A stretch of DNA of 64,000 bases from Candidatus Krumholzibacteriota bacterium (GCA_016932415.1 JAFGCX010000020.1:269288-333287), one strand, 5' to 3'. Shown: positions 29,647 to 53,945, counted from the first letter of the stretch. Notes: generated by a model from the letters alone, not told the origin. Numbers and translations: made by a program.

Positions 29647-29982
29647 TCTTCACGTGCGGCAAAAAGGGGAATTGATTCCATAGACCGGTTGATTCTACAT
29701 TAAATTTTTATTTCCATAACCTATTGTAACTCTCTAAAATAGCAAGGTCAAATGGTTTATTCTGCCCGGAAATGAAGTGACTACCCACAGCCATGAATAA
29801 CGCGGGAGAGGAAATTGACAGTCTCTCGTTTATATGTTACCATTTTTATTAGTGTTACCTGAGATGGGGTTCGAACAGGATGTATTCGTGCTGCTTTTGG
29901 AACTCATACCCGATTGATACGGGATACGGGGTAAAACGGTCGCGCGAATAATAATAGCCGGATATACTTGGATAAGTAGAAA
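29647..29982. other. Divergent intergenic region of the glycan locus
   Basis: This 336-bp A/T-rich gap separates the two arms of the locus and should hold both promoters. A good plus-strand promoter candidate lies at 29815-29843. On the minus strand I see only A/T-rich patches near 29695-29745. No gene, tRNA or operator repeat is evident. Confidence 0.6.
29815..29843 (+). promoter_or_regulatory. Candidate promoter of the plus-strand glycan arm
   Basis: A perfect TTGACA (29815-29820), a 17-base spacer and TACCAT (29838-29843, four of six matches). It lies about 140 bp upstream of the first plus-strand gene and would give a long leader. Confidence 0.5.
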
Positions 29983-30969
29983 GTGAAAATTAAATTGCTG
30001 GTTGGGGTAACAGGTGCGAATGGATTTATTGGGAGTTCCATCGTAACCGGCCTTAAAAAAGCCGGTTACGAGGTTATTTGCCTGGTCAGGAACCGATCCG
30101 GAACAGATCTTCTTCCCGAAGGGTCATGCCAGGTCCGTTATACAGATTACAGCGAACCAGGTAAGATTTGCGTTGCCCTTGAAGGCGTGGATGTAGTCTG
30201 CCATTGTTGCGGCCAGTTAGGTGGATGGGGAATAAACACGGATCTGCTTTATCAAGCAAATGTTGAACTGACGCGGAAGGTTATGCAAGCATCCGTTTTC
30301 TGTGGAGTAAAGCGTGTGCTTCATTTAAGCAGTGCTGGTGTCTACGGCCCCACGGGGGGAAATGTTTTCACCGAGGAAGACCGGTTATCTCCATCCAATC
30401 ATTATGAAGAAAGCAAAGTCGCCGCCGAGGAGGTTGTGTCAGAGATTGCCGGATCGTTTATTCGAACGGTCATCATCAGGCCGGAGTTTGTCTATGGACC
30501 CAGAGATATGCACCTTCTTGGATTTTTTCGAAGAGTGGCGTCAGGTGTTTTCCCCGTGATGAATAATGGAAAATTCCGGCTCCATCCAACTTATATTCAG
30601 GATGTCGTACAGGCAACCGTGAAAATCCTGAACGATCCGGCAATCTCCGGTACATATCTCATTTGTGGACAAAGACATCTGGAATGGAAGGAATTTCTGC
30701 GAATTATCGCGGAAATAATGGATATCAAACTGAGAACTCCAGGCATTCCCCTGCTTCTGGCACGGTCTTCAAGTTTTCTTTTTGAAATTTCGGGCAAACT
30801 ATCCGGTAAAGAACCGTTGCTTACGAATTCACAGGTCAGATTCCTGTCCACAAACAGGTCTTTTTCTTCATCCAAAGCGACCAAAAGATTTGGGTACTCC
30901 CCCATTGGTTTGCGAGATGGGATATCAGAGACGGTGGCATGGTATCGGCGAGAGGGGTTGCTGGCATAA
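29983..30969 (+). CDS. NAD-dependent epimerase/dehydratase (SDR family)
   Basis: The 328-aa protein has the Rossmann glycine motif GVTGANGFIGSSI at its start, and the extended-SDR catalytic segment: a serine in LHLSSAGVYG and YEESK near residues 143-147. IIRPEFVYGP matches the substrate-binding region of nucleotide-sugar epimerases and dehydratases. Sugar-nucleotide modification is likely, but the substrate cannot be read; some 3-beta-HSD-like SDRs look similar. The start is GTG with a poor ribosome site. It is first in the long plus-strand arm, and its stop overlaps the next start as TAATG. Confidence 0.88.
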   Translation: MKIKLLVGVTGANGFIGSSIVTGLKKAGYEVICLVRNRSGTDLLPEGSCQVRYTDYSEPGKICVALEGVDVVCHCCGQLGGWGINTDLLYQANVELTRKVMQASVFCGVKRVLHLSSAGVYGPTGGNVFTEEDRLSPSNHYEESKVAAEEVVSEIAGSFIRTVIIRPEFVYGPRDMHLLGFFRRVASGVFPVMNNGKFRLHPTYIQDVVQATVKILNDPAISGTYLICGQRHLEWKEFLRIIAEIMDIKLRTPGIPLLLARSSSFLFEISGKLSGKEPLLTNSQVRFLSTNRSFSSSKATKRFGYSPIGLRDGISETVAWYRREGLLA

Positions 30970-31757
30970 TGTGGCGGGGACCGATGTTTCAAGATTATCT
31001 TCAGGCGGCGCTTTTCGAGGGAGAGGGGTTTGGAAGCGCTTATGAATACCTTGTCGTAGAACGTTTTCGCCGGGCATTTTCAGGGCACATCCTTCGTCCC
31101 AGGCATATAGTTGTCGATGGATTGCCGGAAAGGTACGGAATCGCGGCTGATATTCTCTTATTGGCAGATTGGTGCGACGCCTCAGTGACAATCCTGGATT
31201 GGGATACATCCAGAATAAAAACATTCAAGGAAGTGTATGCGAAGATGTGCGATCATGGAGTCTTTTCAACTGCCCACAAAACGGTCGATGTCCACAATCT
31301 TCATTGGTCACGGTTAGATTCCATGCTGTCAGAATCGACAAACGATGTGGATTTAATTTATTCGAAAGAGGTATTTCAAACAATCCCTGCAGAAGAACGC
31401 GCTGGATACCTGGAATCCATGGTCCGGACTGAAAAACAAGTATTACTGACGGTACCGAATGGAGACAATCCAGATCACCCGACGACAAGCGGATTGCTCG
31501 GTGTTGACAGAAATGATTTGTCAAGGACCGTTAAAGCGGTCGCAGCGTCACGAAAATACAGTATGAGATGGATAGACTGCCCGCCCGCGTCATCCGGAAA
31601 TCGATCGAGATATCGGCCGTTAAAACCAGGGAGTAAAGTATCAATCGCAGAGCGCGCAATCTCTTCGGCGCTTCAACTCTGGGCAACACTGGAGGAACTC
31701 GTTCCAGATGCATTAAAACGCCGGAAGGCTCATATAATCGCGCTTACCATTTATTGA
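30969..31757 (+). CDS. Methyltransferase-like protein with degenerate SAM-binding motif
   Basis: I place the start at the ATG overlapping the stop of the epimerase gene (TAATG), giving 262 aa; an ATG 30 bp upstream in the same frame is possible. The region HIVVDGLPERYGIAADILLLADWCDASVTILDWD has the spacing of SAM-binding motifs I and II, but not the usual GxGxG. Later, DLIYSKEVFQTIPAEER and LLTVPNGDNPDHP resemble the post-motif region of type 11/12 methyltransferases. It may therefore be an atypical or inactive methyltransferase. Its position between an epimerase and a radical SAM enzyme suggests sugar modification. Confidence 0.6.
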   Translation: MWRGPMFQDYLQAALFEGEGFGSAYEYLVVERFRRAFSGHILRPRHIVVDGLPERYGIAADILLLADWCDASVTILDWDTSRIKTFKEVYAKMCDHGVFSTAHKTVDVHNLHWSRLDSMLSESTNDVDLIYSKEVFQTIPAEERAGYLESMVRTEKQVLLTVPNGDNPDHPTTSGLLGVDRNDLSRTVKAVAASRKYSMRWIDCPPASSGNRSRYRPLKPGSKVSIAERAISSALQLWATLEELVPDALKRRKAHIIALTIY

Positions 31758-31770
31758 AAGTCCTGATGAA

Positions 31771-33558
31771 ATGAAAATTACAGAAACTGATAAACCCTCA
31801 TGCGATCCATTAATCATCCTGGTTCATCCTCCCATCTCAAATTCCAGCATCATGTCGATGCCCCCCCTGGGAATAATATCCCTGGGAACATACCTGACTT
31901 CCATGGGAGTGCGGGTTCGAATTGTCGATTTGGCAAACTTCTGTCGCCGCGGAAAAGACTGCATCATTCAACCCGATAACATTCCCACGGAGAGACTGGT
32001 ACAGTATTATATCACCATCCAACCTCCATCAAAGATACGAAAAGAGGTTCAGCGTTTACTGGAACAAATAAATCCCGGCGAGAATGACATTGTCGGCTTC
32101 AGCATTCTTACCTTTTCTCAATATGCCACTGCTGTTGTGCTGGCCCGCGCGTTAAAACTCTTTTACCCGAAGGTTAAAATCGTATTTGGCGGCCAATTCA
32201 TGACATTAATGGGACATTTTTATTTCTATTCCGAGAAAGCCATTGATTACGTTGTAACCGGTTCAGGTGAATTATCGCTGTTGTCATTGTACAGAATGAT
32301 TCTGAGCGGCAACGATACGACCGGAAGCGAGATAACTCTCGAAGCTCTCGAATTTCCCCTGGGTTTGGATGACTTCAGGATATCATCGGCAAAACAGGAA
32401 GATCTGGCAAAAAGAACTCTCGATATACAAAAAACCCTTCTAAGGCACGCTCCATCAAACCTGCTCAAGCGTGATCTGAATTGTATCAAGGCGATACACT
32501 CCGGGGAACTACCAGTCTCCGATCTTCCGACTCCAAGTTTCGATCTCTGTGACCTTGAACAGTACAAGCAGAGAATATCGGGATCGATGGAACTTATTCT
32601 ACCCTACCAGACTCAAAGAGGTTGTTCCAATTCATGCGCATTTTGCACACACCCCCTTACACAGAAACATGAGTTAAAATCGATAAACAAAATCGCATCA
32701 GATCTGGCTGAGATCAAGGCTTTAACAGGCGCCCGGCGTTTTTTCTTTTCCGATTCTTCAATCAACTGCACAAGTGATTATTTATTGAAATTATGCTATA
32801 ATATCAAAGAGTTAGGATTACAATGGGGTGCCTTCACGCGTATCAGCGGTCTTGATGACGAGGTTATACGGGAGATGGCCCTGGCCGGTTGTTGCTTCGT
32901 TTTCCTTGGAATTGAGTCAGGCAGCAATCCGGTCCTGAGACGGATGAACAAGCGAATCAAGGCTGAGGACTCGGAACGAGTGCTGAGAACTTGTTCCAGG
33001 TATGGCATAGCAACTTTTGCTTCTTTTATTGTGGGATTTCCCGGAGAGCGGGATAGCGATTTAAAAGAGACCCTGGATTTTATAGTCAGAAACAGCCGTT
33101 ACATCCAGGAAGCAGGAGCTACCGCTTTGATGCTCGATTTGGGATCAGGATTGCACATGAATGCCGAGCGATTTTCGCTCCGTTCCCTTCGTTGCGATCC
33201 CACGGCCGTTGTGCGGAAAAGATCCATATTTTCTTACATTACATCAGAAGGTGATTCCTGGCCCAAAATACAAGACCTTATTGACGCAAGGCTGAAACAA
33301 CTTCAACGCGTTGTCTATCAATATGTCACCCGCAGAAATTACCCTGGAACCATCATGAGGTTCTTACCGTTTGCCTTATACCGCTTTCTATTGAAGTATG
33401 AATACGACAGAAAATCATTCCTTGGACAACAGATCTTTATCATCAAGAAGTTAACGACAAAAAGAGAAGAAAGATATTCCTCATTTGCGAGGATTTTCCA
33501 GCTACATGACAGGTATTTTACAAGCAAAATTTGTGAATCCGGTGAGGAGGTCAAATAA
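31771..33558 (+). CDS. Radical SAM protein with cobalamin-binding-type N-terminal domain (1)
   Basis: The 595-aa protein has an N-terminal B12-binding-like domain (IILVHPPISNSS, PPLGIISLGTYLTSMGVRVRIVD, then IVFGGQF) without the DxHxxG lower-ligand motif. The radical SAM core carries CSNSCAFC near residue 288, the CxxxCxxC cluster site, preceded by YQTQRGC. FLGIESGSNPVLRRMNK and FIVGFPGE are the usual later core motifs. Such enzymes methylate or rearrange unreactive carbons; the substrate is unknown. It is the longest of the three B12-type radical SAM proteins here because of an extended C-terminal part. It starts 13 bp after the methyltransferase-like gene. Confidence 0.88.
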   Translation: MKITETDKPSCDPLIILVHPPISNSSIMSMPPLGIISLGTYLTSMGVRVRIVDLANFCRRGKDCIIQPDNIPTERLVQYYITIQPPSKIRKEVQRLLEQINPGENDIVGFSILTFSQYATAVVLARALKLFYPKVKIVFGGQFMTLMGHFYFYSEKAIDYVVTGSGELSLLSLYRMILSGNDTTGSEITLEALEFPLGLDDFRISSAKQEDLAKRTLDIQKTLLRHAPSNLLKRDLNCIKAIHSGELPVSDLPTPSFDLCDLEQYKQRISGSMELILPYQTQRGCSNSCAFCTHPLTQKHELKSINKIASDLAEIKALTGARRFFFSDSSINCTSDYLLKLCYNIKELGLQWGAFTRISGLDDEVIREMALAGCCFVFLGIESGSNPVLRRMNKRIKAEDSERVLRTCSRYGIATFASFIVGFPGERDSDLKETLDFIVRNSRYIQEAGATALMLDLGSGLHMNAERFSLRSLRCDPTAVVRKRSIFSYITSEGDSWPKIQDLIDARLKQLQRVVYQYVTRRNYPGTIMRFLPFALYRFLLKYEYDRKSFLGQQIFIIKKLTTKREERYSSFARIFQLHDRYFTSKICESGEEVK

Positions 33559-33563
33559 TCAGA

Positions 33564-34928
33564 TTGCAAAAGGCATACCGTCTGCATGGAGCCATGAACA
33601 GGCAATACTGGCCGCGGGAACAGCTGGACAAATTTCGTTTCCGACGATTGAAGATGATGCTGGATCACGCTTACAGCCAGTGTCATTACTATCGTACTGC
33701 TTACGATCAGGCGGGAATACACCCGGATGACATACGCTGCCTCGATGACCTAGTCCATCTTCCCATAGTCGAAAAAATCGATGTTCAGGAAATGACAGAG
33801 AGCTTTATCACTTTCCGGCTGCAAAATTACGTCAGGGAAATAGAGAAAGCTCTGGCGACAGGTGAACATCCTCAAGATATTTACCATCACGGGCTCATTT
33901 TTCGCCGGACATCCGGTTCAACAGGTAAACGGCTTATCATATTGATCGATCCGGGTTCCTGGGATGAATTGGAGGCCATCTATGCGAGAAGTCTGTTCGC
34001 TACCGGTCATGGAATCAGAGAATTACTCGCGGTAAGCACTCCCTACGCAGTCCCGGCCAAACGGTGGTTTGCCCGAGTCGGCCTTATGAGAAAAACATAT
34101 GTCCCTCTTTCCCTTCCGGTGGAGAAACAAGCACATATTCTCGCCGGTTTGCCGCTCTGTGATCTGTATTCATATCCCACAAATCTAATGGCTCTGGTTC
34201 GCATCGGATGCGGCAAATCATCGGGATTCAATTTTCGCAGGATTATTTGTACGGCGGAAATCCTGACCGAAACGGCCAGGCTTGAGATCGAGAAAGCTTT
34301 TCAATGCCCGGTGTTTGATCATTATGGGACAATGGAATTCAATCGAATGGCATGGGAATGTGAACATAAAAGTGGCTTACATGAAGATATAGACAGTGTA
34401 ATCATGGAAATAGTCCGAGATGGCCGGCCTGCAGATCCAGGTGAAAAAGGAGAAATTGTGGTCACCGGGCTCGTCAACAAAGGGATGCCCCTGATTCGTT
34501 ACCGGCTTGGTGATATTCTTGTCAAGGGTGAGACGCGGTGTCAATGTGGAAGATCTCTTCCACTGCTGCGGAAAATCGAAGGTCGATCAAATGATTATAT
34601 CGTGACGAGGGACGGGACGCTCGTCAGTCCTACGGCTTTTGATACCGCTCTTTGCAGCGTTCCGGGCGTTAAACAGTTGAAACTGGTACAGAGGGATGTG
34701 GACACTTTCGATCTGCAGTTAATCCCCGGCATTGCCTTCGATATGTCAGCATGTGAAAATAAAGCAAGGAATATCATTTCGAAAATACTGAACAATGCAT
34801 CATTTGTGATGAACATTAATGTGGTCGAAGTGATTCCACGAAGCCCGGGAGGAAAGCTTCAATCCGTGGTGTCCGACTTGTCCAGGGGAATCACGAAAGA
34901 CAAAGAGATATCTTCAAGGAATAAATAA
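33564..34928 (+). CDS. PaaK/CapK-like adenylate-forming ligase
   Basis: The 454-aa protein belongs to the phenylacetate-CoA ligase-like (PaaK/CapK) branch of AMP-forming enzymes. It has the N-terminal RLKMMLDHAYSQCHYYR, the nucleotide-binding loop RRTSGSTGKR near residues 115-125, FDHYGTMEF with the adenine-binding region, and a late MPLIRYRLGDI. CapK-type members occur in capsule loci and activate a carboxylic acid as an acyl-adenylate. Here it may load an acyl group for glycan decoration. The start is uncertain: TTG at 33564 has GAGGAGGT 13 bases upstream, while an ATG at 33594 has no better site. It overlaps the next gene by 1 bp. Confidence 0.88.
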   Translation: MQKAYRLHGAMNRQYWPREQLDKFRFRRLKMMLDHAYSQCHYYRTAYDQAGIHPDDIRCLDDLVHLPIVEKIDVQEMTESFITFRLQNYVREIEKALATGEHPQDIYHHGLIFRRTSGSTGKRLIILIDPGSWDELEAIYARSLFATGHGIRELLAVSTPYAVPAKRWFARVGLMRKTYVPLSLPVEKQAHILAGLPLCDLYSYPTNLMALVRIGCGKSSGFNFRRIICTAEILTETARLEIEKAFQCPVFDHYGTMEFNRMAWECEHKSGLHEDIDSVIMEIVRDGRPADPGEKGEIVVTGLVNKGMPLIRYRLGDILVKGETRCQCGRSLPLLRKIEGRSNDYIVTRDGTLVSPTAFDTALCSVPGVKQLKLVQRDVDTFDLQLIPGIAFDMSACENKARNIISKILNNASFVMNINVVEVIPRSPGGKLQSVVSDLSRGITKDKEISSRNK

Positions 34929-36004
34929 TGAACCTTAATTTCGCTGCAAATCAATTTCGCAACCATATCATGGAGTCTCTGAGCAGAGTTTTTAATATTC
35001 CCGGAACAAGACCTTCACGTTTGACGATGGTCCTGACGGATCGATGCAATCTAAACTGCACTTTCTGCAATTTATGGAAACGCGATTGGCCCCTTTTGTC
35101 GACAGATTCCTGGATACGCGTGATCGATCAGCTGCATGAATGGCTCGGACCTCTTCACCTGGTTTTTACCGGCGGTGAACCTATGACGCGAGAGGATTTA
35201 ACCGAGTTGATTCGTTTCGCGTCGGATAAAGACTGCTGTTGTGAAATTAATTCAAATGGTATTCTAATCAATGATTCCATGGCTGAAACACTGGCTGATT
35301 GCGGCCTTCGTGAGGCTAATATCTCCCTCATGACCACGGACAGGGACGTTTCAAATCTGTTGCATGGTAAAGGAGACATCCCGGAAAGAGTGATTGAAGC
35401 ATTGAAATCATTGCGGAATGCCAGGGGAGGATTGATACAGGTTCGGGTCTTATGCACAATCATGGCTGAGAATCTTGATAATTTACAAGACATCCTTGCT
35501 GTCACCGAGGAACTTGATCTGGAAGGCGTGTTATTTCAACCGGTATATCAAAATTTCGGAAACAACCGGCTGGGAAACAAGTGGTTTATGGAGAATCCAC
35601 ACTGGCCCTCTGATAATCAGAAGGTTTTTGAATGCATGGATAAATTGGCAGAACATAAGAAAGCCGGGCGCAGAATTGTAAATCCTCTTGAACAACTGTA
35701 TCTCATTAAAGACTATTTTTCAGATCCACGGAAATGCAAAAAAGCCTGCGTCGCCTCTGATTCCTCCCTTATTATCGAGTGCGACGGAAATGCCTATTTA
35801 TGCGTTTTCAAACCTGCCGGACCGCTGGGTAATGTCATGGATGCTCACCCCCGTGAAATATGGAATGGAGAGACGAGCACAAGATTGAGAAATGGGATCC
35901 GTGGCTGTAAAGCAGGCTGCGCGTTGATGAATATGAATTATTCTATCCCAATGGTTGATAAAATAAGGAAATACTTTAACATGTACGGACATTTAAACTT
36001 TTAA
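34928..36004 (+). CDS. Radical SAM protein with SPASM-like C-terminal region (1)
   Basis: The 358-aa protein has the core motif CNLNCTFC near residue 41, then LHLVFTGGEPMTREDL (the GGE motif binding the SAM amino group). Its C-terminal region is cysteine-rich: CKKACVASD, GNAYLCVF and GIRGCKAGCALM, consistent with a SPASM/Twitch domain that holds extra iron-sulfur clusters. SPASM enzymes modify peptides or sugars by radical chemistry. The ATG overlaps the stop of the ligase gene. A 22-codon ORF follows 29 bp downstream, which raises the possibility of a peptide substrate, but a sugar is equally likely in this context. Confidence 0.88.
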   Translation: MNLNFAANQFRNHIMESLSRVFNIPGTRPSRLTMVLTDRCNLNCTFCNLWKRDWPLLSTDSWIRVIDQLHEWLGPLHLVFTGGEPMTREDLTELIRFASDKDCCCEINSNGILINDSMAETLADCGLREANISLMTTDRDVSNLLHGKGDIPERVIEALKSLRNARGGLIQVRVLCTIMAENLDNLQDILAVTEELDLEGVLFQPVYQNFGNNRLGNKWFMENPHWPSDNQKVFECMDKLAEHKKAGRRIVNPLEQLYLIKDYFSDPRKCKKACVASDSSLIIECDGNAYLCVFKPAGPLGNVMDAHPREIWNGETSTRLRNGIRGCKAGCALMNMNYSIPMVDKIRKYFNMYGHLNF

Positions 36005-36033
36005 CCGTCCTGATTGATGGAGCAGAGATAAAT

Positions 36034-36102
36034 ATGTTGAGATTCAATAAACCGGGATATGTCAGATTCAAATGTGATTTTCCAGATGGAGATAATCGAT
36101 GA
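36034..36102 (+). CDS. 22-residue peptide ORF, possible leader or precursor peptide
   Basis: ATG at 36034 opens 22 codons, and its stop overlaps the ATG of the glycosyltransferase gene as ATGA. GGAG lies about 11 bases upstream. The peptide begins MLRFNKPGYVRF, contains one cysteine and ends DGDNR. It directly follows a SPASM-type radical SAM gene. The length and the KP and NR positions recall PqqA, but the Glu and Tyr that PqqA needs are absent. It may be a coupling leader ORF, a precursor peptide, or chance. Confidence 0.35.
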   Translation: MLRFNKPGYVRFKCDFPDGDNR

Positions 36103-37136
36103 GTTCATCAGGTCATTCTGTTGAATCACCTCGCATGTGCCCTGATTGCGCAAAAATATCCCTGGATGTCGTCATACCCACGCGGAATCGGGCCCGCAGG
36201 CTGGGGAACTGCCTGGAAACGCTCGCGCGCCAGAATTGCGGACCAAACATGGTTTACATAGTCAATAATGGCTCGACTGATGATACTTCAGAAGTCATCC
36301 GTTCCTTTTCAGTAAGATTGCAAATCCGGGAAGTGTTTCTTCCAACTCCCGGTGAAGGCCTGGCGAGACAGACCGGATATGGAAACGCAAAATCAGCGCT
36401 GGTCGCTTTCACTGATGATGATTGTCTCGCGGGCGAAAACTGGTGCCATATGATTCGTAGAACTCATATGGATAAACCGGAAGCGGCAATAGTACAGGGA
36501 CGATCGATTAATGACGATCCCTCCAACAAGTTCGGGATCGCAATGCAGCACCGTTTCGATATAGCTACCTGGGACAGCAGGCCGGGATATCGCAGTCGCT
36601 GGAGCATCGAGAATATTGACGGTAAATTAGACCGTTCCGTAAATGTTTCGCTTGGACCTGAAGCTGTTGACACGAAAAACATGTCTCTGCGAAGAGCCAT
36701 TGTCTCTGACATAGAACCGGTATTTGATATCTCTCTTCCCACCCTGTCCGATCAGAGCCTCGGAACTCGAGTAAAACAAAAAGACCTGGATATCGTATTC
36801 GAACCTGATATGTTCGTAAGGCACCAGTACAGGCGGGGTTGGATGATGTTGTGGCGGACCTACAGCCTTTATGGAAGATGTCTCGCCATGATTCACCATA
36901 ACCACGGATGTAAACATATCACTGTACCTGTTGATTTGAAATCATCGTTACTGTTTTTATTGGAATGGAGCCTTGGTCCTGCAAGGATCTCCATGAGAGC
37001 GGGGCCAGGCAGGTTTCTCTGGCAATGGCCATACCAGATTGCAATGGAATCCGCTTTCAAGTTCGGCATCCTTCATGAAAAGTTCTTTAACAGGACAAAA
37101 TCAGAGTCGAACAGCCAGGGAGCATCATTAGAGTGA
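36099..37136 (+). CDS. Family 2 glycosyltransferase (1)
   Basis: The 345-aa protein has the GT2 opening LDVVIPTRNRARRLGNCLETLARQ, a NNGSTDDT segment and the metal-binding acidic motif FTDDDC near residue 107. A later segment (FVRHQYRRGWMMLWRTYSLYG) recalls family members that act on lipid-linked acceptors. It would transfer one sugar from a nucleotide donor in the cytoplasm. GGAG lies just upstream of the ATG, and the start overlaps the stop of the 22-codon ORF, so the two are translationally coupled. Four cysteines before residue 50 are unusual, but I attach no function to them. Confidence 0.9.
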   Translation: MSSSGHSVESPRMCPDCAKISLDVVIPTRNRARRLGNCLETLARQNCGPNMVYIVNNGSTDDTSEVIRSFSVRLQIREVFLPTPGEGLARQTGYGNAKSALVAFTDDDCLAGENWCHMIRRTHMDKPEAAIVQGRSINDDPSNKFGIAMQHRFDIATWDSRPGYRSRWSIENIDGKLDRSVNVSLGPEAVDTKNMSLRRAIVSDIEPVFDISLPTLSDQSLGTRVKQKDLDIVFEPDMFVRHQYRRGWMMLWRTYSLYGRCLAMIHHNHGCKHITVPVDLKSSLLFLLEWSLGPARISMRAGPGRFLWQWPYQIAMESAFKFGILHEKFFNRTKSESNSQGASLE

Positions 37137-37209
37137 TAATATAATTATTGGCTGAATAACTATAAATTTCGCCGAGCGTACCGTACTTAACTTGCAAAGA
37201 AGATCCAAC

Positions 37210-38676
37210 ATGAACATACTGCTTATCAATCCTCCATACGCGTACATAGACACAAAGAAACGTGATCAGGGACTGGGCCCCCCCCACGGCCTCGGTTACC
37301 TTGCCGCAAACCTGCAAAAATATGGACATGAAGTCGTCATCCTTGACGGAGCTCTTGCAAACTATAGCTGGAAACGGCTGGAAGCTGAAATGAAAAAACA
37401 CAATCCCGATATCGTGGGGATTTCGTTTATCACAAAGAATCGTTTCCCCGCTTTCAAGGTGATTAAAATTGCCCGGAATATGTTTCCCGATTGCATGATA
37501 GTGGCGGGAGGCCCGCACCCTTCACTAGCTGTTCAGGATACACTCGAACATATTGAAGAACTTGATGTAATCGTGATTGGTGAAGGCGAACAGACCATAG
37601 TGGAGTTGGCGCAGGTACGACAGGGTAAAAGAACTCTCAGTGACGTGAGCGGTATCGCATACCTGGAAAAAGGCGAAACCGTGATGACTGACAGAAGAGA
37701 AAGATTAAACCTAGACGATCTGCCTTTCCCCGCTCGTGAACTATATTATCACAATAATTTCATGGAAAGAATTTCCCCCAGGCAAAAGGTACCCTTGGGA
37801 TTTATAGTCAGTAGCCGTGGATGTCCGGGTAACTGTTCTTTTTGTTCTTCAGTGCGAGTCTGGGGTAAATGGAAGGCTCGCACCCCGGGAAATGTCATGA
37901 AAGAGATCGAATTATTGTATAACAGCTATGGAAAGAGAGTGATTTGGTTTGTCGACAATAATTTCACAGCTGATATGGACCGGGTTGAGGAAATTTGCGA
38001 CAGGTTGATTCATGCCCGCATGAATCTGGAATGGATCTGTTACTGCCGTACGGACGGTATAACATTTTCCCTGCTGGAAAAGATGAAGAAATCCGGCTGT
38101 CGCGAAGTGATTTTCGGGTTGGAATCGGGTTCTCAGCGGATCCTCGACGAAGTAATCGCCAAGGGCACGACGCTGGAACAGAACGAAAAAGTGCTGCAAT
38201 GGTGTGACCAATTAGAGATTCTTAAAATGATGGATTTTATAATCAGTCATCCTTCCGAAACAGTTGAGGACCTCGAAAAGACAATGCTATTGATTCGCAA
38301 ATATGGTCGCAAAAACGCCGTTGTTGCGTGGACAACCATGCACCCGTATCCAGGAACGAAGATTTATAAAATGGCGATCGAGAATGGCCTTCTTCCACCC
38401 GATTTTTCATGGGCCGATGAAAGGTTCCGGGGATACCAGACTCTGAGTGCTGTACATGGCGATGTTCCGATTTTCGTTGATAAGCTGAGCTGGTTCGATT
38501 TCTCCAAGGTACTCGTCGAACTGTCCGCTTACGAGGATTATTCCCTTTGGAGCAAGATGGGGAAAGCAATTAAGGATATACATTCTTTCAGCGATTTAAA
38601 GAAATACGGCGTTCTCGGTTTCGAGTTATTCAAACAAAAAATTTCGGGAAATCTTGATTGGGATAAGGAATATTGA
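37210..38676 (+). CDS. Radical SAM protein with cobalamin-binding-type N-terminal domain (2)
   Basis: I chose ATG 37210 (488 aa), with AAGAAGAT eight bases upstream, over a TTG 18 bp earlier. The N-terminal domain is B12-binding-like (LLINPPYAYIDT, GLGYLAANLQKYGHEVVILD, IVAGGPHPS, VIGEGEQTIVEL). The core has CPGNCSFC near residue 209, after FIVSSRGC, and VIFGLESGSQRILDEV. These are the marks of the large B12-dependent or B12-domain radical SAM family. The stop overlaps the start of a SPASM-type radical SAM gene (TGATG), so the two proteins are probably made together and may act in sequence. Confidence 0.9.
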   Translation: MNILLINPPYAYIDTKKRDQGLGPPHGLGYLAANLQKYGHEVVILDGALANYSWKRLEAEMKKHNPDIVGISFITKNRFPAFKVIKIARNMFPDCMIVAGGPHPSLAVQDTLEHIEELDVIVIGEGEQTIVELAQVRQGKRTLSDVSGIAYLEKGETVMTDRRERLNLDDLPFPARELYYHNNFMERISPRQKVPLGFIVSSRGCPGNCSFCSSVRVWGKWKARTPGNVMKEIELLYNSYGKRVIWFVDNNFTADMDRVEEICDRLIHARMNLEWICYCRTDGITFSLLEKMKKSGCREVIFGLESGSQRILDEVIAKGTTLEQNEKVLQWCDQLEILKMMDFIISHPSETVEDLEKTMLLIRKYGRKNAVVAWTTMHPYPGTKIYKMAIENGLLPPDFSWADERFRGYQTLSAVHGDVPIFVDKLSWFDFSKVLVELSAYEDYSLWSKMGKAIKDIHSFSDLKKYGVLGFELFKQKISGNLDWDKEY

Positions 38677-40717: not shown

Positions 40718-40719
40718 AT

Positions 40720-42153: not shown

Positions 42154-42164
42154 AAGGATCTGTC

Positions 42165-43268: not shown

Positions 43269-43269
43269 C

Positions 43270-43317
43270 ATGGCTAAATCAATCGCAAAACGGCATGAAG
43301 GTGGAGATACGGCATGA
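43270..43317 (+). CDS. 15-codon ORF, possible coupling leader
   Basis: ATG at 43270 follows AAGGA at the end of the previous gene and opens 15 codons. Its TGA overlaps the ATG of the next glycosyltransferase as ATGA. The peptide (MAKSIAKRHEGGDTA) is short and basic, with no known match. It probably serves translational coupling if it is translated at all. Confidence 0.25.
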   Translation: MAKSIAKRHEGGDTA

Positions 43318-46033: not shown

Positions 46034-46041
46034 GGTTGCCA

Positions 46042-46872
46042 ATGAGCAGTCAAACCCCACTTGGTTATTTTCTCGCGCATACATGCTATTCCATGCCCGT
46101 GGAAATCAAGAAATTAAGAAATATTTATTCTACTTTGCAGAGATATCGTGCGTCGAATAACCTGGGTTTTGACTCAATGAAGATTCTGGAATTCGGATGT
46201 GGTTCGGGAGGAATAACCCTGCCGCTGGCATCTCTTGGATGCCAGGTCAAAGCGATTGACATAAGCAGTTATGCTCTTGATCTTATCAATAATAATATGG
46301 ATGGGTATTCCTTCGATAATTTGTCCGTTATCCAGGCTGATGCCTGCGTCTTTAATGATCGGATAAAATACGACGTCGTCGTCGCATCAGAAGTCTTCGA
46401 ACATGTCGACGATCCTGAAGCCCTCACTCGTAGTATTGTGGCGAGGATGAATGATCGTTCAATACTTATCGTGACCATTCCGAATGGTTATGGTATCAAG
46501 GAATTCAAAACACGGATAAGTCCTCATACTGTTTTATTGAAATGGCACTCAAACTATTATTTTCGGAAATGGAAGTGGCTGCGCAAAGTCATGAATAAAG
46601 AACAATGCGAGCAGGGGATAGGCTCGGTTCATTGTCAATATTTTACAATGCGCGGGTTTCTCCAGATAATGGAGACTTGCAACCTGCACCTGATCGAATA
46701 CGCCAAAATGGACTCACTGCTTACAGTCCTTGGCCCTGTATACAGGAAATCAGCGTTTCTCGGTAACCTCGACATAAAGATGGCCGATGCCCTTCCCTCC
46801 TGGCTGGCGAGTGGATGGTATTTTGTCTTTTCACTCAATTATAAAATGACAGATATGGATGAATCTCGATGA
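46042..46872 (+). CDS. Class I SAM-dependent methyltransferase
   Basis: The ATG at 46042 has GAGG six bases upstream and gives 276 aa; a TTG 12 bp earlier is in frame. The motif I segment ILEFGCGSGGITLPLASLG (residues about 45-65) with VKAIDIS is intact, and ASEVFEHVDDPEAL and LIVTIPNGYG follow, typical of type 11/12 methyltransferases. It could methylate a sugar hydroxyl or amino group of the glycan. In contrast to the methyltransferase-like protein at 30969, all SAM-binding motifs are present. It overlaps the following radical SAM gene by 4 bp. Confidence 0.9.
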   Translation: MSSQTPLGYFLAHTCYSMPVEIKKLRNIYSTLQRYRASNNLGFDSMKILEFGCGSGGITLPLASLGCQVKAIDISSYALDLINNNMDGYSFDNLSVIQADACVFNDRIKYDVVVASEVFEHVDDPEALTRSIVARMNDRSILIVTIPNGYGIKEFKTRISPHTVLLKWHSNYYFRKWKWLRKVMNKEQCEQGIGSVHCQYFTMRGFLQIMETCNLHLIEYAKMDSLLTVLGPVYRKSAFLGNLDIKMADALPSWLASGWYFVFSLNYKMTDMDESR

Positions 46873-48365
46873 AACCAAAAGTTGTTCTTATACGCCCCAT
46901 GAATCCACTTAGCCGTTACACATATCCACGGAACAGCATATTCCCTCCCATGGCGTTGTTATGTCTTGGTTCCGCGTTGAATGATATTTGCGATTTGAGG
47001 ATTATCGACTGTTTGATGGAGAGGGATTACAAAAAACTGATATTATCAGAATGTATAAACGCAAGCCTTGTGGGAATTACCGCAATGACTTCGGAAGTTC
47101 CCAGCGGAATCGATATCTCCGATATGATCAAGGCAGAATATCCCGATATGCCCGTGGTATGGGGAGGAATTCATCCCACATTTTATCCAAAACAGACCTG
47201 CGAAGATGACTCAATAGATTTTGTTATTGTTGAAGAGGGTGAACACGCGCTACGCGGCCTTTTAACGGCAATTCATGAAAAACAGCCATTTAATAATATT
47301 AACGGATTATTGTATAAATCAGGCGGGGAAGTTATTCGTAATAATTCTGATGAATACATGAATCTGGATAACTCGACCCCGGTGAACTATGATCTTGTCG
47401 ACATTCGTCAATACACAAAAAAAACACTTCTTAGTGGTATGGAACAAAGCTGGCTCCCCTACCAGTCTTCCCGGGGTTGCCCCTACCGTTGCGTATTCTG
47501 CCATAATTCTATTTTGCAAAGAGGGTATCGGAAGAAAAACGCGGACAAAGTCGTGGAAGAATTGGAAAATATGATTCAAAACTATAATCTTAAATCCTTT
47601 TCTTTTATGGATGATAATTTCTTTGTTGATCCAGTTCGCGTTGAAGCGATTTGCCGGAATATGGTCCGCCGTAATTTTGTAGTAAAATGGTCTGCTGAAT
47701 GCAGGGCTAACTATTTTGGGAATATTCTTGATGACAGCTTGTTGATCCTGTTGCGTAAAGCAGGATGGGCTTCCACAACAATCGGAGCAGAATCAGGATC
47801 GCAGAGAATCCTTGAATTATTGAAAAAGGACATTCTTGTTGGCGACATTTTGAAAGCGGCAGAAATGTGTCACAAATATTCGATTATCCCCAATTTTTCA
47901 TTCATTACGGGTATTCCGGGGGAAACTCGCGAAGATACTCGTCTTACGATGGAAGTCATAAAGAGGGTCAAGGAAATATGCCCCCGGGCGTTCATCTCAA
48001 TAACAAACTATTTTTTGGTACCCGGATGTGAATTGTATGAAACACTTGTCGAAAGAAAAGAGATCACAGCTCCCGAATCCTTGCGTGACTGGAAAAGCGA
48101 GGAATACCAGCGAATGTTCCTGGAAGGATACACAAGTGATAAGTACAGAATGAATGTGGCGTTTTATCACAATCTTGGAAGCGTGTACAACGGGAATGAA
48201 ATACGCAAGGCATTATTTAAATTCAAGATATGGACATTTCCATATTTGTTTTTCGTGATTATAGCCAAGCTAAGATTGAAATATTCCATCTATTCTTTTT
48301 CAATAGATATACGCTTATTTCGAATATTTTCCACTCTATTCCACAAAGCCAGAAATATTATATAA
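46869..48365 (+). CDS. Radical SAM protein with cobalamin-binding-type N-terminal domain (3)
   Basis: The 498-aa protein has the B12-like N-terminal fold (VVLIRPMNPLSRYT, FPPMALLCLGSAL, VVWGGIHPTFYP, VEEGEHALRG) and the core motif CPYRCVFC near residue 206, after YQSSRGC. IGAESGSQRILELL and FITGIPGETREDT follow. The substrate is unknown. It is last in the plus-strand arm; its end and the end of the convergent GT2 gene are 36 bp apart, with no clear terminator. The C-terminal 60 residues are hydrophobic with several aromatic residues and may touch the membrane. Confidence 0.9.
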   Translation: MKPKVVLIRPMNPLSRYTYPRNSIFPPMALLCLGSALNDICDLRIIDCLMERDYKKLILSECINASLVGITAMTSEVPSGIDISDMIKAEYPDMPVVWGGIHPTFYPKQTCEDDSIDFVIVEEGEHALRGLLTAIHEKQPFNNINGLLYKSGGEVIRNNSDEYMNLDNSTPVNYDLVDIRQYTKKTLLSGMEQSWLPYQSSRGCPYRCVFCHNSILQRGYRKKNADKVVEELENMIQNYNLKSFSFMDDNFFVDPVRVEAICRNMVRRNFVVKWSAECRANYFGNILDDSLLILLRKAGWASTTIGAESGSQRILELLKKDILVGDILKAAEMCHKYSIIPNFSFITGIPGETREDTRLTMEVIKRVKEICPRAFISITNYFLVPGCELYETLVERKEITAPESLRDWKSEEYQRMFLEGYTSDKYRMNVAFYHNLGSVYNGNEIRKALFKFKIWTFPYLFFVIIAKLRLKYSIYSFSIDIRLFRIFSTLFHKARNII

Positions 48366-48400
48366 TTACAGACTGGCGTTTTTATTGCGAATATCCCTGA

Positions 48401-49345
48401 TTATTCTTCGTCACGCTTGCCATGATCATCAAACGTCGCTTCTTCATCATCGAATGATTTTGTCGTAGCGGCAATATTCCAGATACTATGGTCACGATGT
48501 AATAAATAATCAATAACACCCGCGAGTCTTGCTATAATTTCAAGAGTGGCAATCCCGCAGAACACGCAAAGGTGCTTCATAATACCGGATCTCCAGGATG
48601 CTTTCAATATTCTTTTCAGTGATATCGTCGAAACAGAGTACCTGCATTCATGTTTCAATTTGAAATGCCCGCAAAATATTCGTCTTCTCTGTTTTATAAA
48701 ATCAGATACTTTCTTGGGACCGTAATTATATACTATCGCTTTGGGTGCATATTCGACTTTATACCCATTATCTTTAACCGTGCATTCAATCAAAGCTTCG
48801 TCGACAGAGGTTTTCACGTCCAACCCTTTTACGATTGATGCTCTCCAGGACACTATTTCGCCCATTTTAGGATTAATAAGACATACCTGGTGATGAAGCT
48901 GCCATAGCCAGAAAGAAACCTTGCCCATGAATTCTTTATAATCGTTAAGGGGAATCGATCTTCCGCCAGTCATGCCAATTTCAGGATTCGAGAATGGTGC
49001 AATCAATTCTAAAAGGGAATCCGGATCGAGCAATGTATCACCATTGTTCATTACAAGGTATTCTCCACTGGCGCGTATAACAAATTGATTTATATCGTAC
49101 GCTTTTCCCCTCCTGCCCTGAGTGACATGTAGTGTAATTCTGTTGTCAATATCGACATATTTACCAACTATCGCATTTGTTTCATCGTCACTGCCACCGG
49201 TGAATACGAGTACCTCTTTTACAATGGTATTGAATCCCCTTTGTTTGACGAGAGAATCCAGCATTCTTTTAATGAATATTTCTTCGTTGTACGCGAATAC
49301 CCCTATACTGACCAAACCATTAAACTGCCGCATATCAATAGACAT
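48401..49345 (-). CDS. Family 2 glycosyltransferase (2)
   Basis: The 314-aa protein has the GT2 N-terminus VSIGVFAYNEEIFIKRMLDSLVKQ, then VFTGGSDDETNAI and YLVMNNGDTLLDPDSL. In the last segment the usual DxD is reduced to NGDT, which is seen in some members but may change metal use. A C-terminal hydrophobic region (LCVFCGIATLEIIARLAGVIDYLL) may anchor it to the membrane. It lies 4 bp after the radical SAM gene at 49350 and in the same direction, so the two are probably cotranscribed. The A/T-rich composition matches the rest of this arm. Confidence 0.82.
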   Translation of the reverse strand: MSIDMRQFNGLVSIGVFAYNEEIFIKRMLDSLVKQRGFNTIVKEVLVFTGGSDDETNAIVGKYVDIDNRITLHVTQGRRGKAYDINQFVIRASGEYLVMNNGDTLLDPDSLLELIAPFSNPEIGMTGGRSIPLNDYKEFMGKVSFWLWQLHHQVCLINPKMGEIVSWRASIVKGLDVKTSVDEALIECTVKDNGYKVEYAPKAIVYNYGPKKVSDFIKQRRRIFCGHFKLKHECRYSVSTISLKRILKASWRSGIMKHLCVFCGIATLEIIARLAGVIDYLLHRDHSIWNIAATTKSFDDEEATFDDHGKRDEE

Positions 49346-49349
49346 AAAA

Positions 49350-50462
49350 TCACCGACGCATCAAATAATATAATGTTTTAATAACAACTTTAGAATATTG
49401 AACCGGATCACACAGCAGGTTTGAATAAAACACGTTCACAAGAGGGCATGCGCAATCTTTACGCAAATATGATCTTTGCTTCATTCTGGCCGCTTCAGAA
49501 TTCCACAATTTATTAAAATCATAGTCATGATCTGCTATATTTGCCATTTTATCACCTTGTATACAGCAATTCCATACATCTCCGTTCGGACAAATTTGCA
49601 CGGACGCCCTTCCCGCAAGACATCTGTTATTCATATTTTCAGAATCTAACCATCGGTTTAAATGCTTATAATATTCTTCTCGAACTACAGAACGGAACAT
49701 GAGAAGCATATTTTTTCCATCGCGATCATACTCAGGTTTTATGCGACTTATTATCTCCTTCAAGGAGTAATTATCCGGAAGCAGGGAAGTCCCCAGAGTG
49801 TCCAACTCTTTCCTTTTTTCAGCGATCTCAAATATGTGACCATCGATTTTTAATTGAGCTATCTGTTGTATCAATTGCTCCAAATATTTTATGTTATATT
49901 TTGATATCACTGAATGCACGGAAGTCTTCAACCATGGGTATTTCAACTCCTGCAATCGCCTGATTGTTTCCAGTGCCAGCACGTACGCGTCTGGACGCCC
50001 CCTGATATCGTCGTTTAATTCTTCCAAACCATCTATGGAAACATTAACCATCATTTGAGATGCAGACGATCTGAAATATTTATTGCATTTCTCGACGCAT
50101 AAGACAATTTTTTCAGGTAAGAGGCCGTTGGTAGGCATATTTATAACGGAAGCTTTGCATCTTTTTACCGATGCTCCTATCAATTCACTTAAATCTTCAT
50201 AAAGGGATGGCTCTCCCCCACTGAACGTTATCCAGCGGGCGGATTCACCGATTGAGTTGATTATCTTCAACCATTCATCAATATCAAGTTCTCGATCAGA
50301 ATCCTTTGCCCATATGTTACAGGTCTTGCATCTGGAATTACATCGGTTCGTTACCGACAATGTGTAATTAAAAGGCATTGGCGAATCGAGTTTCAAAACG
50401 GAATTGGACCAATGAAGCGATGCACTTTTCAACAGCTTGATTATTTCACCCGTTTGTACCAT
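49350..50462 (-). CDS. Radical SAM protein with SPASM-like C-terminal region (3)
   Basis: The 370-aa protein has CNSRCKTC near residue 37 and the motif WITFSGGEPSLYEDL. The C-terminal part has many cysteines: NNRCLAGRASVQICPNGDVWNCCIQ and RKDCACPLVN, the pattern of a SPASM domain with one or two extra iron-sulfur clusters. It is the third such enzyme in the locus. The start codon has no strong ribosome site. It precedes the GT2 gene and follows the TPR membrane protein gene by 76 bp, all on the minus strand. Confidence 0.9.
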   Translation of the reverse strand: MVQTGEIIKLLKSASLHWSNSVLKLDSPMPFNYTLSVTNRCNSRCKTCNIWAKDSDRELDIDEWLKIINSIGESARWITFSGGEPSLYEDLSELIGASVKRCKASVINMPTNGLLPEKIVLCVEKCNKYFRSSASQMMVNVSIDGLEELNDDIRGRPDAYVLALETIRRLQELKYPWLKTSVHSVISKYNIKYLEQLIQQIAQLKIDGHIFEIAEKRKELDTLGTSLLPDNYSLKEIISRIKPEYDRDGKNMLLMFRSVVREEYYKHLNRWLDSENMNNRCLAGRASVQICPNGDVWNCCIQGDKMANIADHDYDFNKLWNSEAARMKQRSYLRKDCACPLVNVFYSNLLCDPVQYSKVVIKTLYYLMRR

Positions 50463-50538
50463 TATTATGACTGATAATGCTCAATTACCGTCGTACCACC
50501 TGTTCTTCCATGTAAACAAAAGATCCTGTAATTAATTA

Positions 50539-52326
50539 TCACTTTCTGAATCTCACTCTATATTCATATTCCTTGTATTTTGGATCAATCCTTACAGCCT
50601 CGTAATATTCCCGCATTGCTTCTCTATATAGTTTCATTTCCTGATATTGCAATGCTAAAGTATAATGCGCGATGTCGAGACGCGGATTAATTTGTACGGC
50701 TTTTTTTATATCGCCTATGCCTTCTTCGACAGACCCCATACACAACCTCACTACACCAAGATTATAGTAAGCCATAAAGTAAGAAGTATCATATTCAATA
50801 GCTTTACAGAGTTCGGTTTGTGCCAATTCGTAATATTTTTTTCTTCCGTACAACGATCCAAGGTTATAGTGAAGAAGGGCGTATTTATCCGACAAATATC
50901 TTGGTTTGATTTGATTGTTCTCATTTATATCCATATTATCCGACCTGTCAAATTCGAGCGCAATTCTTTCACTCACAGCATCACAAATAGTTAACGCAGC
51001 TTTATACTCATCTAGCGCCTTATCGAACAGACCCTGGCTTTCGCACGCGTATCCCAGATTGACGTGAGCATCAACCGATTCCGGATAAAGGAATACTGTT
51101 TTTGACCATAAAGTGTAATTCGACTTCCAATCCTTGTTACGTTGAATTATCAGGATCGAATAAAATACAAACAACGCCAGCAACAGTGAGTAAAATACAT
51201 TTTTAACGATAATGCTATTTTTTGATTTAATTGCTTGAACATATATCCGATCAATCAATAAAGCCGATACAAGACAGGTCCCGTATGAGGGTGCGAACAA
51301 GTATCTATCAGCCATATAATGAGGCACAATATGGAAAATGTGCAAAAATGGTAAAAGACCGATTAAAAACCAGTACAATCCGAAGGATATATCTTTAAAA
51401 TACCTGAATCCGATAATTAATAACCCAATAAATATCGCGCATACAATAATGGATCTTATCACTTTGTATGTTTCAATTGATGTTATATCCGGGTAAGGAT
51501 AGATCGCTGAAAGATTAATTGGCACCGTATAAAGAGACATGTACCTCGTCATTGTGATGAAAGGAATACTTGATTTTCCAAATTGATGCTTTCCGGTAGC
51601 TATTGTTTCAATATTCATTTTATTGGTTACTTCACCAATATATCTTGGAAGCCTGTAAGTGGATGATATCTCCATCCCAAAAAGAAATATCGCGATAACC
51701 AGTAGATAGAGAGCATAGAACTTTATCATTTTTCTTATATGATGTTTTATGCTGCCCTGTAAGGTAAAGTAGAAATCATATCCAATAATCAAAAACGGGA
51801 GCACAATGCCAACCGCTTCCTTTGTCATCAATGAAATGGCAAAAAACACGAGCGACAACAAAAGACCTGCATTCGAGCGATTTCCCTTTATATATAATAT
51901 GAATGAAGACAGTAAAAATACAGTCGCAAGGAGGTCTGCTCTATTCGACGCATTGTTTACGACTTCTGTATGTACGGGTTGCAGAATAAACAGTAACGCA
52001 GCGAGAAATGCCACTGATGATCTGCTAGTGACCAACATTGAAGTCTTGTAACATAATAGAACGCACACGATAAAGAGCAGTACATTCGTCAAATGATATC
52101 CGAATGGATTGAGTTTCCAAATGCTGTAATCAATACCGAATGTGATTATGCTTATGGGACGAAAGCCTGGCATGTTAGAAAACAGCATCCTCCAGTTTCT
52201 GATATTTTCATTATTTATGATAGATTTGAGGTCATCATACGTAAAACCATTTTTCAGGCTGTTCGAATATACCGCGAGTGAAACTGCCGCGAGGCCACAT
52301 ATTAACCATATATTATTTTTTTTCAT
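50539..52326 (-). CDS. Multi-pass membrane protein with C-terminal TPR repeats (TMTC/PMT-like)
   Basis: The 595-aa protein has an N-terminal GT-C-like membrane part of about 10 helices, beginning WLICGLAAVSLAVYSNSLKNGFTYDD. The acidic pair in a first external loop is typical of O-mannosyltransferase-like enzymes. The last 190 residues are TPR repeats (VDAHVNLGYACESQGLFDKALDEYKAA, HYNLGSLYGRKKYYELAQTEL, AYYNLGVVRLCMGSVEEGI, AHYTLALQYQEMKLYREAM). Bacterial proteins of this design resemble eukaryotic TMTC proteins. It may transfer a lipid-linked sugar to proteins or glycans in the periplasm. No good ribosome site is seen. Confidence 0.8.
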   Translation of the reverse strand: MKKNNIWLICGLAAVSLAVYSNSLKNGFTYDDLKSIINNENIRNWRMLFSNMPGFRPISIITFGIDYSIWKLNPFGYHLTNVLLFIVCVLLCYKTSMLVTSRSSVAFLAALLFILQPVHTEVVNNASNRADLLATVFLLSSFILYIKGNRSNAGLLLSLVFFAISLMTKEAVGIVLPFLIIGYDFYFTLQGSIKHHIRKMIKFYALYLLVIAIFLFGMEISSTYRLPRYIGEVTNKMNIETIATGKHQFGKSSIPFITMTRYMSLYTVPINLSAIYPYPDITSIETYKVIRSIIVCAIFIGLLIIGFRYFKDISFGLYWFLIGLLPFLHIFHIVPHYMADRYLFAPSYGTCLVSALLIDRIYVQAIKSKNSIIVKNVFYSLLLALFVFYSILIIQRNKDWKSNYTLWSKTVFLYPESVDAHVNLGYACESQGLFDKALDEYKAALTICDAVSERIALEFDRSDNMDINENNQIKPRYLSDKYALLHYNLGSLYGRKKYYELAQTELCKAIEYDTSYFMAYYNLGVVRLCMGSVEEGIGDIKKAVQINPRLDIAHYTLALQYQEMKLYREAMREYYEAVRIDPKYKEYEYRVRFRK

Positions 52327-52462
52327 CGGCGTATTTTCGAAACTACACTCCAGAATTCGACTATTACAACCTGCTGTCAGCTATTATATCAATTCTCTGG
52401 AACATTGCCGTTTTCGACAAATTCAGGTTTCTGACCTATCCGGTGCCTGAGGTACTCCGAAG

Positions 52463-53401
52463 CTATGGAATCATCATATTTTCCTTAAACCAGGAAATCG
52501 TCAATCGCAGACCTTCCTCCAGTCCGACCTTCGGTTTCCACCCCAGGTATTTTTCCGCTATAGAAATATCCGGGCAACGTTTATCAGGATCATCTTCGAA
52601 TCTTTCCATAAATTCTATTGCAGCATCACTATCGCATAGTTTTTTAATTATATTCGCGAGCTCAAGAATCCGTATTTCCTGGCTATTGCCAATATTGACA
52701 GGTTTATTATAATCACTTTCCATGAGTTTGTACAAACCCCTCACGGTATCGGAAACATAACAAAACGATCTTGTTTGCATTCCTTTGCCATGCACGGTGA
52801 TGGACTCATTATTCAGGGAATTGATGATAAGATTGGGAATGACCCGGCCATCATTGAAAGCCATATTAGGTCCGTATGTATTGAATAATCTGGCTATCCT
52901 TGTGTCAGCGACTGCGCTTCTGGAGTAAATGGTCATTAACGTCTCGCCGAATCTCTTTGATTCTGAATAGCAGCTTCTCATTCCAACAGGTGATACTGCA
53001 CCAATATAACTTTCATTCTGCGGATGCATCTCAGGATTCCCGTAAATCTCCGAGGTCGATGCGAACAGAATCCTTGCATTTTTTTCTTTGGCAAGTTCCA
53101 GCATCTTCAAAGTGCCAATTGAATTGGCCATTGCTGTTTCCAATGGAGCCTCATAATAATGCCTTGGACTCGCTCTTGAGGCAAGATGATATATCTGATC
53201 AATATGCTCATCTATTGAGAGCGTTTGACAAATATCATGTTCGATGAATCGCAGATTTAACTGCTCAAGCAGGAGAGTTTTATTTTCAGGGTGACCCGTA
53301 CTGAGGTTATCGATCCCTATAATCGAATTACCTTTTGAAAGAAGTAACGCGCACAGATGACAACCAATATGCCCGCAACATCCGGAAACGAGAATATTCA
53401 T
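52463..53401 (-). CDS. UDP-glucuronate decarboxylase-like NAD-dependent epimerase
   Basis: I chose ATG 53401 (312 aa), which has GGGGGGT upstream, over a TTG 27 bp earlier. The NAD motif is present in variant form (SGCCGHIGCHL), followed by GIDNLSTGHPENK. The segment YHLASRASPRHYYEAPLETA and FASTSEIYGNPEMHPQNESYIGAVSPVGMRSCYSESKR closely matches UDP-xylose synthase (UXS), and RIARLFNTYGPNMAFNDGRVIPN completes the pattern. It may make UDP-xylose or a related pentose donor. It heads the second minus-strand arm, and the gene after it starts 136 bp downstream. Confidence 0.85.
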   Translation of the reverse strand: MNILVSGCCGHIGCHLCALLLSKGNSIIGIDNLSTGHPENKTLLLEQLNLRFIEHDICQTLSIDEHIDQIYHLASRASPRHYYEAPLETAMANSIGTLKMLELAKEKNARILFASTSEIYGNPEMHPQNESYIGAVSPVGMRSCYSESKRFGETLMTIYSRSAVADTRIARLFNTYGPNMAFNDGRVIPNLIINSLNNESITVHGKGMQTRSFCYVSDTVRGLYKLMESDYNKPVNIGNSQEIRILELANIIKKLCDSDAAIEFMERFEDDPDKRCPDISIAEKYLGWKPKVGLEEGLRLTISWFKENMMIP

Positions 53402-53573
53402 AAGACCCCCCGATACTCTATAATGCAATTGTAGTACTTATAATCACATAAGTCAACCCGTCCCTGTTTATTAATTCACCTTTTCAATCCCCGGTACGGA
53501 CGAAGATCATTCAAATCGTATTCTACTGTCGGAGATTTAGTGGGGAAAAACCATCCTCTTCAATTATGAAATG

Positions 53574-53732: not shown

Positions 53733-53945
53733 GGGTTACTTCCTATAACCTGCATTTTTAGGAAAATTGAAGGGATTTGAAAAATCTGTTGACACTGTAT
53801 CGTGGTTAAGAACAAGTACTAGTATCTTAAGTGTCTTTTGAGTAAAAACCATCGATATCGAGTCCTTCGAGGACGAGACGATTATACTCCATCACGATGC
53901 TGATGTCCATTGACATGAGCAATCGCACCTACTACAATAGATTCA

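Follow-up and report, generated by a model that had tools for sequence, protein, structure and literature searches.

How did six radical S-adenosylmethionine (rSAM) genes come to lie among glycan-assembly genes, and do they act on the glycan? This question is raised by positions 29983-53428 of a 64,000-nucleotide stretch (the window) from a Candidatus Krumholzibacteriota bacterium (GCA_016932415.1, JAFGCX010000020.1:269288-333287), where Pfam analysis of twenty large open reading frames (ORFs) placed the genes rS1 to rS6 among genes of glycan assembly. Our results suggested that the locus is probably a horizontally variable island for a Wzx-type envelope glycan (or glycoconjugate), composed of conserved rSAM cassettes whose enzymes would act on a sugar or on its acyl substituent. 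It is not the singular oddity that a previous, sequence-only reading took it for, yet it led to conserved rSAM cassettes.

The six rSAM genes claimed in that reading were confirmed. In all six proteins (31771-50462) the rSAM domain scored above the Pfam gathering cut-off and the CxxxCxxC motif was intact. The 3.11-Mb genome contains 27-29 rSAM domains, and six of them lie inside 19 kb, which is a genuine concentration and far from an even spread. rS1 (31771-33558, plus strand; Radical_SAM 5.4e-21, B12-binding 2.3e-9; CSNSCAFC), rS3 (37192-38676, plus; B12-binding 7e-22, Radical_SAM 1.8e-20) and rS5 (46869-48365, plus; Radical_SAM 9.8e-21, B12-binding 9.5e-15; CPYRCVFC) are of the B12 type, with PF02310 above the cut-off in each. 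The B12-binding domain of rS1 is a partial match in which the GGPH histidine is absent, and use of cobalamin by the three proteins is a prediction from the domain. These three proteins belong to distant, separate lineages and are not tandem copies; rS1 and rS5 sit on long branches.

The other three proteins are of the SPASM or a SPASM-like type. rS2 (34928-36004, plus; Radical_SAM 2.1e-22; CNLNCTFC) carries a Pfam SPASM domain above the cut-off (5.3e-8). rS6 (49350-50462, minus; Radical_SAM 1.6e-15) scored 21.1 bits for SPASM, slightly below the cut-off of 21.5; among 15 homologues, C41/45/48 of the radical cluster together with C299 and C339 are invariant, and C281 and C337 nearly so. rS4 (38673-39761, plus; Radical_SAM 3.2e-28) has a SPASM/twitch-like C-terminal cysteine set (C278/295/300/331/333/337) without a Pfam SPASM match. 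All six proteins scored under every cut-off of the NCBIfam rSAM families (AprD4, BchE, HpnJ, PqqE, B12_rSAM_oligo and others), and by these models none can be assigned to a known family. TIGR04295 (B12_rSAM_oligo), a model presumably named for oligosaccharide loci, gave 24, 86 and 56 bits for rS1, rS3 and rS5 against a cut-off of 400; the trait they share with it is that of B12-rSAM proteins. The AprD4 model gave 62 bits against a cut-off of 500.

The glycan-assembly character of the locus was also supported by Pfam, which detected glycosyltransferases (GTs), short-chain dehydrogenase/reductase (SDR) genes and a Wzx-type flippase. Of the hallmarks of a Wzx/Wzy-type locus, the flippase, GTs and nucleoside diphosphate (NDP)-sugar enzymes are present. 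On the plus strand are GT2a (36099-37136; Glycos_transf_2 7.1e-18), GT4a (42165-43268; Glycos_transf_1 1.8e-11), GT4b (43314-44660; Glycos_transf_1 3e-26) and GT4c (44657-46033; Glyco_transf_4 7.6e-12); a second GT2, GT2b (48401-49345; Glycos_transf_2 7.1e-17), is on the minus strand. Three SDR genes were found: SDR1, an HpnA/OleD-like sugar epimerase/dehydrogenase (29983-30969, plus; Epimerase 1.7e-34), and the NDP-sugar dehydratase/epimerases SDR2 (39758-40717, plus; Epimerase 4.5e-53) and SDR3 (52463-53428, minus; GDP_Man_Dehyd 1.9e-49). The locus further encodes CapK, an adenylate-forming ligase of the PaaK/CapK type by its NCBIfam and PDB matches (33564-34928, plus), and two methyltransferase-like proteins. 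MT2 (46030-46872, plus) matches Methyltransf_23 (4.5e-19); MT1 (30939-31757, plus), without a Pfam match itself, was taken as class I methyltransferase-like from its family.

The previous gene list was right for the GTs, SDRs, CapK and methyltransferases and needed correction elsewhere. The flippase (26588-28165, minus; Polysacc_synt 5.8e-8) and the polysaccharide pyruvyl transferase (25443-26582, minus; PS_pyruv_trans, PF04230, 1.8e-21) lie to the left of 29983, where that list began, as does an FrhB/FdhB-type Fe-S flavoprotein (28192-29646, minus; PF04432 1.1e-22, PF04422). The nucleotidyltransferase-like gene (40681-42153, plus) is a weak match (NTP_transf_2, E 0.0049), and a PMT_2 (GT-C) membrane glycosyltransferase with C-terminal TPR repeats (50539-52326, minus; PMT_2 1.8e-6, TPR_1 3.6e-15) was missing from the list.

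Fifteen genes (29983-48365) form the plus arm, and it is plausible that they are a single operon, some junctions being without overlap. The junctions measure -37, -31, five times -4, -1, 5, 11, 13, 45, 55 and 94 bp, and overlap couples rS3-rS4-SDR2 and MT2-rS5 translationally. The tight 1-4 bp overlaps that had been read as a sign of one pathway are therefore real in part (five of 4 bp, one of 1 bp); gaps reach 94 bp, and a single pathway for all six rSAM enzymes, rS3 and rS4 in particular, is not demonstrated by them. The locus is A/T-richer than its flanks, as stated before, with a GC content of about 37-48% against 51% and 55%; by arm it is 40-49% (plus) and 37-42% (minus, the lowest).

rS1 had no full-length match in 58 relatives, and 80 genomes of the phylum yielded no rS2 relative at 1e-35. 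Because rS1 and rS2 are without close relatives in related genomes and the GC content drops, the locus is taken as a horizontally variable island. Most rSAM homologues of the phylum stand alone and outside glycan surroundings. The sole genus-mate (G001) shares the right-flank genes (86-91% identity), but its contig ends a few hundred bases beyond them and lacks the one left-flank gene tested, so that neither an empty nor an alternative site is readable there. A repeat search at both edges of the locus gave no convincing mobile-element boundary.

Other genomes showed which of these genes travel together (loci are numbered L). rS6 relatives occur in 11 of 384 Omnitrophota genomes and in three of the four genomes of the small phylum of L102, where rS6 and GT2b homologues stand side by side. 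Thirteen rS6-family loci were compared (E <= 1e-35). In the five closest (rS6 36-40% identical), a GT2b homologue (36-42%) is directly adjacent, the partner in L121 being read in L102/L122, and in a sixth it is one gene away. These pairs come from Omnitrophota and from a second small phylum. Parabacteroides, too, has an rS6-like gene, next to that of a nucleotide-diphosphosugar-binding glycosyltransferase.

A second cassette is formed by SDR1, MT1, a B12-rSAM gene and CapK. The Omnitrophota locus L137 carries, in a single run, homologues of SDR1 (37.5% identity, 99% coverage, 5e-65), MT1 (25%, 95% coverage), B12-rSAM, CapK (32%, 98% coverage, 1.7e-74) and rS6 (33%). CapK homologues (E <= 1e-45) were found in five of 384 Omnitrophota genomes, each time with an rSAM gene adjoining. 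MT1-family members occur in six rSAM neighbourhoods (L102, L119, L134, L136, L137 and L141), and the member in L119 matches Methyltransf_11 (1.1e-5). CapK itself scored 112-139 bits with PaaK-type NCBIfam models, under all equivalog cut-offs, and resembles PaaK over its full length (residues 18-436; PDB 4r1l 3e-25, 2y27 1.2e-22). Since rS6-GT2b, CapK-rSAM and SDR1-MT1 recur across phyla, part of the rSAM set appears to work with glycan genes. Comparison of neighbourhoods, which the sequence-only reading had proposed, thus bore it out for rS6-GT2b, for CapK with B12-rSAM and SPASM-rSAM genes and for SDR1-MT1, and went the other way for rS3, whose relatives lie outside glycan loci. No earlier description of the two cassettes was found in our literature search.

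Three observations were made around these cassettes. The Omnitrophota locus L154 (G268, 5229-15159) has the run GT-C, B12-rSAM, SPASM, CapK, SPASM, B12-rSAM, an old-yellow-enzyme-like FMN reductase and an rSAM-like gene. A DUF362 protein lies between two MT1-family and two B12-rSAM genes in L119 (2947-4047) and L102 (4325-5425). CapK and rS4 homologues of three Omnitrophota genomes have one or two in-frame TAA codons in the matched stretch (G307:C87:36043-37296, G268:C1:43988-45202, G287:C52:1335-2360), perhaps through a pseudogene, a sequence error or match overhang.

AprD4 is not known to be cobalamin-dependent; it is an rSAM 1,2-diol dehydratase acting on paromamine in an aminoglycoside antibiotic pathway. 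BlsE is the cytosylglucuronate decarboxylase of a nucleoside antibiotic pathway. Sugar-acting rSAM enzymes are known mainly from such antibiotic pathways (AprD4, BlsE, DesII, GenK). AprD4 was the best fold match of the AlphaFold2 model of rS1 (mean predicted local distance difference test score (pLDDT) 72; Z 24.5, root-mean-square deviation (rmsd) 3.3, 392 residues, 17% identity), and BlsE that of rS6 (pLDDT 79; Z 24.5, rmsd 3.4, 293 residues, 15% identity). In the PDB, the top sequence match was AprD4 for rS1 and rS3 and SkfB for rS2 and rS6. The sugar-acting fold neighbours of these predicted models would fit the deoxy, C-methyl or rearranged sugars proposed in the sequence-only reading, a fold match not in itself showing function.

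The island reading is based on gene content, layout, low GC, the missing rS1 and rS2 relatives and the linkage of two sub-cassettes, and the following steps are suggested by families and neighbourhood. rS3-rS4-SDR2 would convert a nucleotide sugar or lipid-linked sugar to an unusual sugar through radical oxidation, epimerisation, deoxygenation or C-methylation. SDR1-MT1-rS1-CapK-rS2 may make a carboxylate substituent, which CapK would activate as an acyl-adenylate and which, after radical tailoring, would be loaded onto a sugar or lipid carrier. GT2b and rS6 may share one sugar, which GT2b would transfer and rS6 would oxidise or epimerise, and the last transfer, in the periplasm, might fall to the PMT_2/TPR protein. 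The repeat would be assembled by GT2a and GT4a-c and exported by Wzx. We tentatively consider, as the less likely case, that rS6-GT2b and SDR1-MT1-B12rSAM-CapK-SPASM are parts of a glycan-tailoring system that is shared across phyla and not yet described; its radical enzymes would modify either a sugar on its lipid carrier or an acyl group that the PaaK-type ligase then attaches, before GT2/GT-C transfer.

Several results weigh against the island reading. A common pathway for all six rSAM enzymes is inferred from operon structure only. The closest rS3 relatives are from Aminicenantes (33-39% identity, twelve loci among the matches listed), and these genes stand beside SMC, SSF symporter and deacetylase-family genes, hardly any GT lying within 10 kb of them. 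rS4 had no close relative in our searches, and the relatives of rS1 and rS5 are distant only, which makes the glycan linkage of these three a putative one. Among the locus genes scanned, Pfam and NCBIfam revealed neither a Wzy polymerase nor an initiating sugar-phosphate transferase, Wzy being hard to detect by profile. Non-sugar enzymes are tied with or close behind the best fold neighbours (MgmA, Z 23.5, for rS1; SkfB, Z 23.3, for rS6; also SuiB).

One alternative is a hypervariable island of independently acquired rSAM and glycan genes, with rS3, rS4 or rS5 in unrelated functions and no single product. The distant lineages of rS1, rS3 and rS5, the non-glycan contexts of rS3 relatives and the different GC of the plus and minus arms, which suggests more than one acquisition, are in its favour. 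Translational coupling of rS3-rS4-SDR2 and MT2-rS5 argues against it, as does the linkage of rS6-GT2b and CapK-rSAM across phyla, and we consider it unlikely. Still less probable is a product other than a surface polysaccharide, namely a small molecule or lipid that is glycosylated (aminoglycoside-, hopanoid- or aryl-lipid-like), with CapK and SDR1 making or loading the acyl or lipid part. The closest models of SDR1 are HpnA (147 bits) and OleD (101 bits), both under their NCBIfam cut-offs; CapK is PaaK-type, and AprD4 and BlsE make antibiotics. However, the identified genes include neither a ketosynthase nor a terpene cyclase nor an aminocyclitol synthase, and the presence of Wzx, the pyruvyl transferase and four GTs speaks for a polymer or an oligosaccharide repeat. 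A system for ribosomally synthesized and post-translationally modified peptides, in which SPASM maturases and B12-rSAM enzymes act on a peptide that is then glycosylated, would agree with the SPASM architecture and the SkfB matches of rS2 and rS6, but was rejected as very improbable: the gaps checked hold no suitable precursor ORF (the longest plus-arm gap, 94 bp, has no room for one, and the ORFs in the gaps 29647-29982 and 53429-54440 are short, with nothing notable about them), and neither a peptidase nor an RRE or PqqD partner was identified.

Is an rSAM-rich glycan locus unusual? A single-sequence rS3 scan of genome contigs gave no relatives, and an alignment-based scan was needed; in the named genomes this found at least 80 loci around rS3-like genes, a sample and not a census. 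Of those listed, 55 hold at least 13 kb, and 15 of the 55 have three or more rSAM genes. Five of the 55, spread over several phyla, combine four or more rSAM genes with two or more GT genes: L093 (Omnitrophica, 10 rSAM), L069, L077 (Portnoybacteria), L081 and L084 (Elusimicrobia). Pfam confirmed GT2, GT4, PMT_2, FkbM and NTP_transferase members in the rSAM-rich loci checked. Among the loci listed, GT-C genes were found in 8 of the 15 with at least three rSAM genes versus 5 of the 40 with two or fewer (Fisher p 0.003); this is one of three tests, and the loci are phylogenetically related and not independent, which again tells against leaning on it.

Known plasmids gave the same picture. The 36-kb plasmid of Brachyspira hyodysenteriae WA1 carries six rSAM genes interspersed with several GTs, SDR epimerases and NDP-sugar genes (BHWA1_02666-02684; PMC4267127, Table 3), and this block, like the present locus, is variable between strains (PMC4267127). 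Compared by gene listing, it differs in being plasmid-borne and in having rfbC/rfbF and two HAD hydrolases, with no CapK, Wzx or methyltransferase listed. Annotated plasmids of the same style occur in Solidesulfovibrio (four rSAM genes) and Lawsonia (two). In Solidesulfovibrio carbinolicus pDCAR1 (L032), the four rSAM genes (three B12-type, one SPASM-like) accompany GT, SDR, acyltransferase and sugar-nucleotide genes. Unlike our locus, it has NeuB/PseF nonulosonic-acid genes and no CapK, and its B12-rSAM is just 29.5% identical to rS3. The Omnitrophota loci L137, L154, L134 and L136 share sub-cassettes and neighbours with our locus (25-42% identity), but in another order and with other GTs and GT-C, and are unannotated in public genomes. 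Plasmid searches with rS1 and rS2 returned generic rSAM proteins only (~25% identity). The supposed norm of none or one rSAM gene per surface-polysaccharide locus therefore fails for uncultured anaerobes, with their five rSAM-rich loci, and for Brachyspira (PMC4267127). The arrangement is a recurring one in little-studied bacteria and hardly discussed in the literature searched, where only the Brachyspira papers described multi-rSAM glycan loci; a TrsS/DVU_1553 lead gave nothing useful. If envelope glycans are indeed what the cassettes modify, uncultured anaerobes would commonly have radical sugar chemistry at their surfaces; the rS6-GT2b pair offers a small expressible unit for testing this.

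Some minor observations remain. In about eight Aminicenantes genomes among the matches listed (L034-L046), the rS3-like B12-rSAM gene follows an SMC-type ATPase gene on its downstream side, immediately or nearly so, often with an SSF symporter and a histone-deacetylase-family gene next, and this neighbourhood is conserved. A same-class genome has four B12-rSAM-like ORFs in a row (L018, G030:C849), none with a canonical CxxxCxxC. The PMT_2/TPR protein (595 aa, GC 37%) has a TMTC-like layout, and L112 holds a distant relative (22%) close to rSAM genes. At the right edge of the locus, a small nucleotidyltransferase-like ORF (54290-54814) overlaps an opposite-strand GT4 gene and may be spurious, and a small aminoglycoside-adenylyltransferase-like ORF is found at 56109-56948 (E 2.5e-4).

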